Positions 29,329-42,118 of a DNA stretch of 51,641 nucleotides are shown here, piece by piece (position 1 is the stretch's first letter; every line of letters starts with the position of its first letter). The notes beneath the pieces were generated by a model. That model did not search any database. It worked only from the letters and a program-made list of their open reading frames with translations, and was not told the origin of the DNA. Source of the stretch: an uncultured Lachnospiraceae bacterium (GTDB lineage Bacteria; Bacillota; Clostridia; Lachnospirales; Lachnospiraceae); the NCBI GenBank assembly GCA_949740535.1, contig CATJHO010000119.1:1-51641 (forward strand). The letters are read 5' to 3'. The position numbers and the translations under genes were made by a program.

Positions 29329-30222
29329 ATGAAAAAATGGCTGAGTGTAGTTCTGATTTTCACCCTGTTGCTTTCGGGATGTTCTTCCCAAAAGAGTGAG
29401 GGAATCCGGGAGGAAGAATTCACCACGCCGGGCGGCGAGACAGGGTGGATCTATCTGCCGGAGGGGATAAAAACAGATACGGATCAGAAAAAGCCTCTGG
29501 TGCTGATGACATGCGCTGTGGGAGAGGAGCCTGCAGAGAAGGTGAAGGAAGCCGGCTGGTTCAAGCAGGCAGAGGAGGCTGGCTTTATGGTGCTGGTGCC
29601 GAAGTATAAAACTACGGAGACCTTCAGCCAGACAGGAAGAATCATGGATGTCGTAAATTATGCCATCCAGCACTATCCGGTGGACACCACCCGGATTTAT
29701 GCCACGGGATTTTCCAATGGCGGCGGTGCCGTGTCAGCACTGGCCAACGACTATCCGGAAGTTTTTGCGGCTGTCAGCTGTATGAGCTGGATGATACCGC
29801 TTAAGAACCCGGATATGGACTATGAGATGCCGTTTCAGGTCATTCAGGGCAGCGAGGATCTGACCCTGGAAATGGATTCTGGTTCCATGCGGGTGATGGA
29901 TGATGTGGTCTGGGGCATTGAGTCCATGATGCGGTACAATCATCTTCTGGAAAAGGGTGAGGCCAAGGATTTTGACAAGACAGAGTACTGGGGGTATGAG
30001 CCCGACAAAGTAGAGACCGGGACAATTGATGGAAGAGTCTGGACCTTCAGCAATTATTATAAAGATGGCTACACAGCACCCTTTGCCCAGTTTGTGCTGG
30101 TTGAAGGAGCCAAGCATGAATTGAATGAATATAAGGCTTTTGCGGCCTGGGAGTTTTTGCGGCATTACACACGAGGAGAGGATGGAGCGCTTGTAGAAGT
30201 GGAAGAAACAGTCACTGAATAG
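29329..30222 (+). CDS. Alpha/beta-hydrolase (PHB-depolymerase/feruloyl-esterase-like) lipoprotein
   Basis: A 297-residue exported lipoprotein with an N-terminal hydrophobic segment and lipobox LLSGC (Cys18). The hydrolase domain shows the nucleophile elbow GFSNGG (Ser129) and a late His in GAKHELNE, with GSEDLTLE a candidate for the acid region. The overall layout is that of the PHB depolymerase/LpqC-type esterase family. The substrate is unknown; plant-wall esters or other acyl esters are possible. ATG 29329 gives a classic lipoprotein start; GTG 29317 is a possible alternative just behind AGGAGAGGAG, so the exact start is uncertain. It is the last gene of the HtrA-like cluster. Confidence 0.82.
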   Translation: MKKWLSVVLIFTLLLSGCSSQKSEGIREEEFTTPGGETGWIYLPEGIKTDTDQKKPLVLMTCAVGEEPAEKVKEAGWFKQAEEAGFMVLVPKYKTTETFSQTGRIMDVVNYAIQHYPVDTTRIYATGFSNGGGAVSALANDYPEVFAAVSCMSWMIPLKNPDMDYEMPFQVIQGSEDLTLEMDSGSMRVMDDVVWGIESMMRYNHLLEKGEAKDFDKTEYWGYEPDKVETGTIDGRVWTFSNYYKDGYTAPFAQFVLVEGAKHELNEYKAFAAWEFLRHYTRGEDGALVEVEETVTE

Positions 30223-30250
30223 TGGAAAATGCGAATGGTGTATAGAAAAG

Positions 30251-30293
30251 GAGCATCCCATGTGCCAGACGACATTTGGGGTGCTCTCTTCTT
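30251..30293. terminator. Bidirectional terminator between esterase and csp genes
   Basis: A 10-base stem (30251-30260 with 30277-30286, one G-U pair) is flanked by T-rich sequence on both strands (TCTTCTTT on the plus strand, CTTTTC on the minus). It serves the convergent esterase and cold-shock transcripts. Confidence 0.85.
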
Positions 30294-30324
30294 TGTGAAA
30301 CTTAAACCTTTGTGAAACTCAAAC
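30291..30324. repeat. 17-base tandem duplication just after the csp stop codon
   Basis: Two copies (30291-30307 and 30308-30324) differ at one base and abut the cold-shock gene's stop codon. They are probably a local slippage duplication. Confidence 0.7.
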
Positions 30325-30531
30325 TTAAGCGACAACAACTACGTTGGTTGCCTGGGGTCCGCGATTGCCCTCTGTGATGTCGAAGGTTACGGTCTGGCCC
30401 TCTTCCAGTGTCTTGAATCCTTCGGCTACAATGCCGGAGAAGTGTACGAATACGTCCTCGCCAGTTTCGGAGTTGGTAATGAAACCATATCCTTTTGTGC
30501 CGTTGAACCATTTTACTGTACCTTTGTTCAT
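30325..30531 (-). CDS. Cold-shock protein (Csp family)
   Basis: A 68-residue single-domain nucleic-acid chaperone of the CspA/CspB type. It starts [18 protein letters not shown], with RNP1 (KGYGFI) and RNP2 (VFVHF) visible. These proteins bind single-stranded RNA and DNA and melt secondary structure, and some act as transcription antiterminators. AGGAGG lies 9 bases upstream of the ATG at 30531. The frame is open further upstream, but that sequence is the untranslated leader. The leader is long (about 136 bases) and holds a terminator-like hairpin, suggesting leader-mediated control. Confidence 0.97.
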
Positions 30532-30580
30532 TAAAAGATACCTCCTAATTAAGTACTCTTCCGCATATCTTCTCCGAGAT

Positions 30581-30634
30581 AAAAAAACATGTTCTGCAAG
30601 CATCATGTATAGAATGATTACTTACAAAACATGT
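30581..30634 (-). promoter_or_regulatory. Terminator-like hairpin (attenuator candidate) in the csp leader
   Basis: On the minus strand a 14-base-pair outer stem (30634-30621 with 30600-30587) contains two G-U pairs. It encloses an inner 5-base stem (ATCAT with ATGAT) and is followed at once by a run of six or more T. It sits about 33 bases downstream of the predicted transcript start and 50 bases before the coding start. It therefore looks like an intrinsic terminator inside the csp leader. Confidence 0.7.
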
Positions 30635-30673
30635 GAATCAACCTTCATCAAAAATATACTTCAATGCACTTTC

Positions 30674-30702
30674 ATAGTAGCCTATTTGGGAAGAAATGTC
30701 AA
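30674..30702 (-). promoter_or_regulatory. Consensus sigma-A promoter of csp
   Basis: On the minus strand: TTGACA (30702-30697), exactly 17 bases, TACTAT (30679-30674). The predicted start near 30667 leaves a leader of about 136 bases. Confidence 0.85.
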
Positions 30703-30785
30703 GTAAAAATAATGGAATTTTATGGGATTTTGTTAAAAAATTGTTACTTTTTGAGTGTATAACAAGTTAAAAAGCGGGGAGAACC

Positions 30786-31751
30786 TTATGAAACCGAGGG
30801 GTTCCACTGCTTATTTACTGCATTCAATACCTCAATGGCACTTACGGTCATATCTTCTGTCATAACAGGGCTTTCACACAGATGCTTCCGAATACACTGC
30901 TCAGCATGGAGTATCTCATAGACCAGTTCGTATTCGCAGGGATATTCCAATATAACAGGATCCCGGCTGGGATAATGAAGAACTGCTCTGCGGGCTTTCC
31001 AGTATTCAGGGATTTCAATAAATCCCTTTTCCCCGTACAGATAAGCTGTGTGGGTGGTGGTTACAGAAGTGCTTGTCTTATTGGTAAATAAGAGACCATT
31101 TTCCATCAGCATGGAAACTGCAAACTGGCTTTCTACAGAGGTATGGCTTCTGGTGCAGAGCCCGGTCCACTCCACAACCTTGCAGTCGAAGAGATACTGC
31201 ATAAGCTGAAGACTGTAAATAGCGTTTCCGTAGAGGGGACCGCCGCCCTTTTCGGGATCAAAGAACCAGGTGTTGTACCCTGGATCAAAGGAACTTGAAA
31301 AATCTGCCATTTTCACGGCGCCCAGAGATCCATCCTGAAGAATTTTTTTGATGCGCTGGATGACAGGCAGAAAGAGAACCTTCTGGGTTTCCATGATAAA
31401 AAGCCCCTTTTCACGGGCAAGAGCGAATAATTCACGAGATTCTTCGGCATGCAGGGTAAAGGGTTTTTCACAGAGAACATGCTTGCCCTGCTCCAAAGCC
31501 ATTTTGGCATACCGGTAATGCTGGCTGTTGATCATGGCCACATAGGCAGCATCAATTTCGTCAGAACAGAGAAGCTCCTCATAGCTTCCGTAAGCCTTTG
31601 GGATATTCCAGAGAGCGGCCTTTCCGGCTGCACGTTCCGGATTCCGTGATGCCAGGGCGGCAGCCTGACAGCCTGGAACAGATTGAACGGCACGGATAAA
31701 GCGGGGAGCAATCGAGGAAGTGCTTAAAATTCCAAAACGCAGTTTTTCCAT
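30786..31751 (-). CDS. Gfo/Idh/MocA family oxidoreductase
   Basis: A 321-residue NAD(P)-dependent oxidoreductase. The N-terminal Rossmann domain starts KLRFGILSTSSIAPRF. The family motif CEKPF (Glu95-Lys96-Pro97) carries the conserved Lys of the active site. The C-terminal alpha/beta domain (about 130-321) binds the sugar or other substrate. The nearest relatives I recognise are the dihydrodiol-dehydrogenase-like branch, but the substrate cannot be read. It begins 21 bases after the murF stop, the last gene of a run that otherwise makes cell-envelope precursors. Confidence 0.88.
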   Translation of the reverse strand: MEKLRFGILSTSSIAPRFIRAVQSVPGCQAAALASRNPERAAGKAALWNIPKAYGSYEELLCSDEIDAAYVAMINSQHYRYAKMALEQGKHVLCEKPFTLHAEESRELFALAREKGLFIMETQKVLFLPVIQRIKKILQDGSLGAVKMADFSSSFDPGYNTWFFDPEKGGGPLYGNAIYSLQLMQYLFDCKVVEWTGLCTRSHTSVESQFAVSMLMENGLLFTNKTSTSVTTTHTAYLYGEKGFIEIPEYWKARRAVLHYPSRDPVILEYPCEYELVYEILHAEQCIRKHLCESPVMTEDMTVSAIEVLNAVNKQWNPSVS

Positions 31752-41578: not shown

Positions 41579-42025
41579 ATGACAAATAAAGTGTTATTGA
41601 CCATTGCCGGTCTGCAGGTGATGGACGGAGATCAGGAGGTTCCGGTAGAAGTAGTGACGGCCGGGAATTATTATCACCGGAATGGGAAACATTATATTCT
41701 GTATGATGAAGTTACAGAAGGGTGTTCGGAACATACCCGCAATACGGTTAAAATTGGAGAGGACAGTCTGGAGGTCATCAAGAAAGGCCTGTCTAACGTA
41801 CACATGGTATTTGAGAAGAACCGCAAGAATGTGACCAGCTATACCACTCCCTTTGGGGATTTGACCGTTGGGATTACGGCTCATCAGATCAAGATAGAAG
41901 AAAGTGATACGGATATTGACGTTCAGGTAAGCTATTCGCTGGATGTAAATGATGAGTATCTGGCTGACTGCTCCATTCAGCTGAATGTGAAGTCCAAGGA
42001 TGCAGGGAGCTTCCGGCTCCAGTAG
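41579..42025 (+). CDS. DUF1934 domain protein (YwiB family)
   Basis: A 148-residue protein, about the full length of the DUF1934 family, predicted to be a small beta-barrel (calycin-like) fold. Characteristic sequence: KHYILYDEVTEG, NTVKIGEDSLEVIKKG, and TTPFGDLTVGITAHQIKI. No enzyme motif is visible and the family function is not established. It starts six bases after murI and is the last gene before a hairpin at 42077-42118. Confidence 0.9.
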   Translation: MTNKVLLTIAGLQVMDGDQEVPVEVVTAGNYYHRNGKHYILYDEVTEGCSEHTRNTVKIGEDSLEVIKKGLSNVHMVFEKNRKNVTSYTTPFGDLTVGITAHQIKIEESDTDIDVQVSYSLDVNDEYLADCSIQLNVKSKDAGSFRLQ

Positions 42026-42071
42026 TATAAGCAGGCTGTATGCCGGCCCTGCTGCAGACGTGGGTTTTGAA

Positions 42072-42118
42072 TAAAAAGGCCGTCCTGCCACAGAAAGTTC
42101 TCTGCTGCAGGGCGGCCT
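42072..42118. terminator. Terminator shared by DUF1934 and the convergent membrane-protein gene
   Basis: A 12-base GC-rich stem (42077-42088 with 42107-42118, one G-U pair). On the minus strand it is followed by T5, so it is a full terminator for the minus-strand gene; on the plus strand no T run follows, so it may be less efficient there. Confidence 0.85.

Follow-up and report, generated by a model that had tools for sequence, protein, structure and literature searches.

In Bacillota, attenuators built on an intrinsic terminator comprise the riboswitch, T-box, PyrR and LicT types. The cold-shock protein (csp) leader described here resembles them in its order of promoter, leader, terminator-form hairpin with U-tract, and gene, and differs from them in that no competing antiterminator, conserved peptide, or matched known sensor domain was found in it. 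Regarding csp genes themselves, an earlier note on this locus had placed their classical control at translation and RNA stability, an account that is incomplete, since E. coli CspE reportedly regulates cspA transcription negatively, according to the title of a 1999 paper.

The csp genes of several bacteria are described as translational thermoswitches, whose ribosome site is exposed in the cold (PMC8079631, PMC8155936); these include cspA of E. coli (RF01766), cspA of Listeria, and cspB and cspC of S. aureus. They share with the present case a structured csp leader. Contrary to them, the ribosome site is not predicted to open with temperature here, and the leader alone does not match RF01766, either in the window or in locus L100. 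The cspA mRNA of S. aureus carries a long 5'UTR hairpin (starting at -113) in which RNase III, as reported in PMC3386247, cleaves at -53 and -88, resulting in a stabler mRNA and more translation. Finally, the cold-shock boxes of B. subtilis cspB and cspC are conserved 5'UTR stretches of csp genes, as is our element, and suppressor point mutations are reported in or near them, one of which doubled a cspC-lacZ fusion; unlike our element, and as far as a comparison by description alone can go, they are presented as boxes and not as a terminator (PMC8307031).

The earlier note had drawn attention to a terminator-like hairpin inside the leader of a csp gene and had interpreted it as a possible Csp attenuation switch. 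We confirm here that the observation is real and larger than first described, whereas the interpretation is partly supported.

The csp locus and its leader

What we call here the window is the whole stretch of DNA analysed, namely contig CATJHO010000119.1 of an uncultured Lachnospiraceae bacterium (assembly GCA_949740535.1; 51,641 nucleotides). The features of its csp locus are collected in Table 1. The promoter that had been proposed upstream of the hairpin is confirmed: its two hexamers are separated by a spacer of 17 nt, match the consensus at 10 of 12 positions and make up the best of six promoter-like sites in a scan of 29500-31500. Judging from the -10 box, csp transcription would be expected to start near 30667 and, since the csp ORF starts at 30531, the leader would be about 136 nt long, in agreement with the earlier estimate. 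The stem was also rightly placed in the leader, but its geometry was not the 14-bp stem with an inner hairpin first described; it is a continuous stem of 20 bp with one bulge.

Table 1. Features of the csp locus in the window.
Feature	Position	Strand	Basis
-35 hexamer TTGACA	30697..30702	minus	promoter scan
-10 hexamer TACTAT	30674..30679	minus	promoter scan
P1 outer stem, 5' strand	30650..30659	minus	minimum-energy fold; pairs with 30572-30563
P2 long hairpin, 20-bp stem, one bulged base, 7-nt loop	30587..30634	minus	folding; compensatory changes
U-tract, 7 T, the first paired, abutting the stem	30581..30587	minus	sequence
P1 outer stem, 3' strand	30563..30572	minus	minimum-energy fold; outer pairing enriched across leaders
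Shine-Dalgarno AGGAGG	30541..30546	minus	sequence
csp gene, 68-aa cold-shock protein	30325..30531	minus	ORF; Pfam CSD, E = 1.6e-29

The gene upstream of csp encodes a GFO/IDH/MocA oxidoreductase in the same orientation, and the hairpin lies between both genes. A second csp gene of the same genome (contig C172) is found without such a hairpin, and the covariance model R1, whose wider matches are given below, detects a single copy of the element in this genome at E <= 10.

The same anatomy could be followed across a set of 124 leaders, for which a T-rich tail was required, and which was reduced to 118 by the removal of six non-element members (L049, L054, L056, L059, L062 and L109). A promoter match of at least 9/12 lies upstream of the stem in 109 of the 111 leaders with enough upstream sequence, compared with 25% of shuffles, and downstream of the stem in 21 of the 118; the controls for promoter, P1 and prefix were single-base shuffles. 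The distance from the end of the -10 box to the stem is 28-38 nt in the middle 80% of the 118 leaders, the stem measures 16-27 pairs (median 23, about two helical turns), and its end is separated from the ATG by a median of 51 nt. These csp leaders have the layout of an attenuator, with the promoter upstream, on the same strand, and the gene downstream. Among the 59 loci left after removing six non-element rows, a longest-ORF heuristic gave 26 upstream neighbours in the same direction as csp and 31 divergent ones, with 2 unclear. Such frequent divergence indicates that the hairpin is not part of the upstream gene. The outer stem P1 joins the 5' end of the leader to the stretch between the U-tract and the ribosome site, with an expected pair count of 8 or more in 91 of 108 leaders versus 48% of 540 controls in which the stretch after the U-tract had been shuffled.

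Conservation of the hairpin as an RNA

When 61 genomes were searched at the DNA level with the leader, a match was obtained in each of the 16 belonging to the genus (G000-G015, the window's own genome included), and among the other 45 there was one weak 28-base match. In the 16 genus loci, the leader precedes a csp orthologue and resembles that of the window in its 5' stretch, its hairpin and its T-rich tail, the exception within the genus being L010, whose T-rich tail is broken (TTTATTATTT). Two other loci have peculiarities of their own. In L006 (G011:C113) the csp frame ends after 42 codons although the leader is intact, and the leader of L015 is some 75 nt longer than that of L014, through additional GC-rich hairpin sequence that separates the ribosome site from the element, itself unchanged.

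Within the family, csp loci were collected by protein similarity (80) and from those listed via the CSD family in 150 family genomes (30). Many of them show the same leader architecture in different letters, and two sequence types of the element can be distinguished, A (TCACATATTTTTGTAAGTCATTA...) and B (TCACTAGTTATTAGAGATTATA...). Conservation of the stem with compensatory changes had been set beforehand as a refutation test, and such changes are abundant in the two alignments built from hand-picked hairpin-bearing leaders, which share 11 sequences and exclude hairpin-less leaders. In alignment A1, with 32 sequences including that of the window, 94.0% of the cells pair and 16 of 19 pairs show double-sided changes, and none of 500 shuffles equalled it on a single measure; when the partner was shifted by 1-3 columns, 31-57% of the cells paired and 2-5 pairs were double-sided. 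In A1, the window's own subclade apparently has its 3' arm misplaced by MAFFT, the shift amounting to roughly one column. In alignment A2 (type B, 24 sequences), 98.1% of the cells pair and double-sided changes occur in 9 of 20 pairs, and at most 2 of 500 shuffles reached these values (2/500 for the double-sided changes). The slid controls fell well below the true pairing.

The exceptions to Watson-Crick pairing reveal which strand is under selection, as G-U cells outnumber A-C cells by 64 to 5 in A1 and by 49 to 0 in A2. The element is therefore an RNA of the csp sense strand rather than a DNA palindrome, and an operator of that kind is ruled out by this one-strand excess. It is as an RNA on the csp sense strand that the stem is kept by selection.

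The hairpin and its U-tract have the form of a terminator

The 56-nt segment containing the window hairpin folds with -17.5 kcal/mol versus -6.8 +/- 2.3 for its shuffles (z = -4.57), and the whole csp leader of the window has a folding z of -5.44; in both cases, none of 200 shuffles was as good. With a stable stem and a U-tract directly after it, the hairpin has the form of an intrinsic terminator, as had been noticed from the T run, and, of the 398 candidates considered over the two strands of the whole window, has the second-best score on a d'Aubenton-Carafa-type terminator scale. The top score corresponds to position 42077 on the minus strand (GGCCGCC...GGACGGCC then TTTTTATT), within the predicted ORF 41594-42091 and close to its start. 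A simple terminator scan of the window did not return the csp-leader hairpin, probably because the bulge interrupts its gap-free stem.

The association between hairpin and U-tract was also examined in 108 csp leaders taken without regard to hairpins (77 of them belonging to the similarity set and 31 from the CSD-family loci and L001), where a strong hairpin is present in 40 leaders versus 19 of 540 shuffles. By shape only, with no tail criterion, 32 element-shaped hairpins were picked from these leaders, and a U-tract (at least 5 T in the next 8 bases) follows 31 of them, in a scanned stretch that leaves out L079 with its poor T-run. Once six non-element hairpins are removed (L047, L049, L056, L059, L062 and L109), the count is 26 of 26. 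The 8 bases preceding the 32 hairpins contain at least 5 A in 5 cases and at least 5 T in 9, and 16% of all 8-mers in the 108 leaders are equally T-rich.

Some leaders depart from this form or approach it from elsewhere. The T-run is poor in the csp leader of L079 (on the same contig as L191), where a type B hairpin has come close to losing its U-tract in nature; a repeated GC-richer hairpin insert lies between this hairpin and the ribosome site. The Bacillaceae-type csp leaders L049, L054, L056, L059 and L062 have, at a comparable position (about -133 to -61), a hairpin whose sequence is unrelated, of the form GTCGTAGCTGC...GCTGCGAC, followed by a T-run, as if csp leader terminators had arisen repeatedly.

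Regarding the means by which such a hairpin could be opened, the earlier note had proposed a cold-shock protein or another fold, as a feedback or cold switch. The predicted stability of the window stem rises from -21.1 kcal/mol at 37 C to -33.7 kcal/mol at 10 C, and between 10 and 55 C the stem remains stable. Since it is only stabler in the cold, thermal melting alone cannot be the switch. Nor did the folding of 108 csp leaders reveal a conserved competing antiterminator fold, which leaves the proposal of an opening by another fold without support; the segment from the start site to the end of the 5' arm has little structure beyond that of its shuffles, with a mean z of -0.35 and values below -1.5 in 14 of 108 leaders.

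Distribution and linkage to cold-related genes

The covariance model R1, run with strict filters that lose weak matches, matched 81 of 397 family genomes at E <= 0.001 and left 316 without a match. Among the matches listed, 99 of the 100 loci examined have csp directly downstream: 90 of 90, plus 9 of 10 others, where eight were flagged and L286 was assigned from its downstream DNA, the tenth (L292) lying at a contig edge. The window's own element has a low R1 score (46.8 bits). Several copies may be present in one genome, with model matches reaching seven in G089, a genome with eight CSD matches, and six in G218, both strands counted.

At the phylum level, model R2 matched 3 of 398 genomes and R1 matched 5 of 299, the window's own included in the latter. 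Seven loci from five families were examined outside the family, and six of them precede csp. The seventh (L224) stands before a gene, unrelated to csp, whose product matches the Pfam family YdjO ('Cold-inducible protein YdjO', E = 1.2e-23). According to PMC6449464, YdjO is cold-shock-induced and functionally uncharacterised. In the genus concerned (g556, family f112), the same hairpin with its T-run stands before the 65-aa copy of ydjO, the only copy that this count covers, in 7 of 7 genomes searched (ydjO-side loci L224, L250, L251, L254, L270, L271, L274-L278, L296 and L300), five of which R2 also matched at E <= 0.05. In a sister genus with a longer YdjO, the hairpin is present in none of the 11 judgeable loci (of 12, L269 lying near a contig end).

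Family f112 contains four further weak non-csp matches of the model (E above 0.002), which resemble ordinary gene-end terminators; the model is therefore unspecific at low scores. A stronger match in the same family, L301 (G855:C1:645396), places the element before a csp-like frame that is seemingly degraded.

Relation to catalogued RNAs

At curated thresholds, Rfam 15 finds nothing in the window. Searches with the leader only, for the window and L100 at a permissive threshold, gave scores far below the curated cut-offs, the best being bglG-cis-reg for the window (21 versus 80 bits) and mir-2329 for L100 (30.6 versus 90 bits), the latter being a chance likeness of the long stem. Even though csp loci match RF01766, these matches span the coding region, and L100 alone is above the cut-off, the others falling below. 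An already catalogued RNA family is thus ruled out by the leader-only searches.

In the open-access literature, which was the scope of our search, no description of a conserved terminator in Lachnospiraceae csp leaders was found. A term search of PMC11109978 returned no mention of csp or cold shock, and the temperature-dependent attenuation of Acetobacterium acetogenesis genes, not clearly seen as far as PMC6239172 describes it, has no bearing on the csp leader. As a hairpin with a U run that is kept by compensating mutations, is terminator-like and also occurs before ydjO, the csp leader hairpin is likely to be a control element not described before.

Alternative explanations

The main rival of a leader terminator, less probable than it but deserving serious weight, is a hairpin for processing or stability: RNase III would cut the stem, or P1 and P2 would build a 5'-terminal fold protecting the mRNA, the csp mRNA would be better translated, and the U-tract would be secondary. 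The stems, with the lengths given above for the 118 leaders, are long double-stranded stems in a csp 5'UTR (20 bp in the window), and P1 ties the 5' end of the leader to the stretch before the ribosome site. The S. aureus cspA leader is similar in its long hairpin and its length, and its processing is placed about 50 nt before the AUG (PMC3386247), so that both the length of our stems and their distance from the ATG are comparable to those in S. aureus. Contrary to that hairpin, the element described here has a U-tract and a conserved 5' arm; L088, from Mammaliicoccus sciuri and not from S. aureus, has neither. As this one staphylococcal relative is without a comparable single long stem and U-tract, a shared origin of our element and that of S. 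aureus is left without support. Furthermore, RNase III needs no U-tract at the 3' foot of a stem, and in our leaders one is nearly universal at that position. Processing by RNase III would thus not be the whole story, and termination and processing may both act on one hairpin.

A translational thermoswitch of the kind known from E. coli, Listeria and S. aureus, in which the ribosome site would be exposed in the cold, has the control of csp genes in several bacteria as its precedent, and is very unlikely here. In predictions for the free RNA, the main hairpin is already formed at 37 C (mean lower-stem pairing of 0.98), and the openness of the ribosome site in 108 leaders changes in the wrong direction, from 0.63 at 37 C to 0.53 at 15 C, the site being more open at 15 C in only 17 of the 108. 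No opening of the ribosome site in the cold is therefore predicted.

Ribosome-mediated attenuation through a leader peptide is more improbable still. Part of the window's genus (L003, L010-L018) does have an AUG with an SD-like stretch and a frame of 3-4 codons (MFL or MFCK) in the 5' arm, but a start codon with an SD-like stretch is present in only 28 of 118 leaders, and the peptides (first 25) differ. The 5' arm reads CACATA, with no AUG, in 64 of 124 leaders, and has an AUG (CACATG, or CATG at its start) in 26 of 124, so that a conserved short frame with its own ribosome site is not found.

The least credible reading, a terminator of the upstream gene, would suit the co-directional oxidoreductase gene of the window, with the hairpin in between, and is contradicted by the conserved promoter upstream of the hairpin (109/111) and by the divergent neighbours in 31 of 59 loci.

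A probable leader terminator for csp transcription

What we consider somewhat better than an even bet is a conserved leader terminator that attenuates csp transcription, to which a control by Csp or by cold may be added. According to this model, the element would act in cis, as a leader RNA conserved in one class of csp genes. Transcription would start about 22 nt (33 in the window) ahead of a hairpin that mostly measures 21-24 bp (20 bp in the window), with the U-tract at once after it. RNA polymerase would partly terminate at this U-tract, releasing a leader RNA of about 85-90 nt (about 87 nt in the window), and csp would be carried by read-through transcripts only. The start site, termination in vivo and the adjustment of read-through are those steps of the model that we infer.

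The factor adjusting read-through may be the free Csp pool or low temperature, with homeostasis as the most plausible scheme: abundant free Csp would increase termination, whereas cold-structured RNAs would absorb Csp and let read-through rise. Our preference for this direction of the feedback is a guess and should be given little weight. Csps are the natural candidate factors because they alter intrinsic termination, even though the reports differ on how. In E. coli, CspA, CspC, CspE and CspD are reported to lower intrinsic termination at some terminators (PMC11648934, PMC9765468). In B. subtilis lacking CspB and CspD, read-through is described as going up at several terminators and down in the pyr operon, and both proteins are presented as favouring termination, not antitermination (PMC8307031), which lends no support to the proposed opening of the hairpin by Csp.

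Termination alone is not a sufficient explanation and may not be the whole story, given that the stem exceeds what a terminator needs and is conserved over its full length, partly in sequence. A broader proposal, which we regard as doubtful but possible, is that of a Csp-responsive leader terminator, an RNA family outside Rfam 15 common in Bacillota to csp and to one or more cold-induced genes unrelated to it, ydjO among them, by which the free Csp pool would tune the transcription of a small cold regulon via read-through at a common element.

If real, a leader terminator kept across a large family of gut bacteria and re-used before ydjO would place csp feedback at transcription elongation. 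In the papers cited here, the way in which csp genes sense the cellular RNA state is known chiefly from E. coli, Listeria, S. aureus and B. subtilis. With the reports from E. coli and B. subtilis at variance, the element would offer a natural substrate to settle whether Csps promote or prevent termination.
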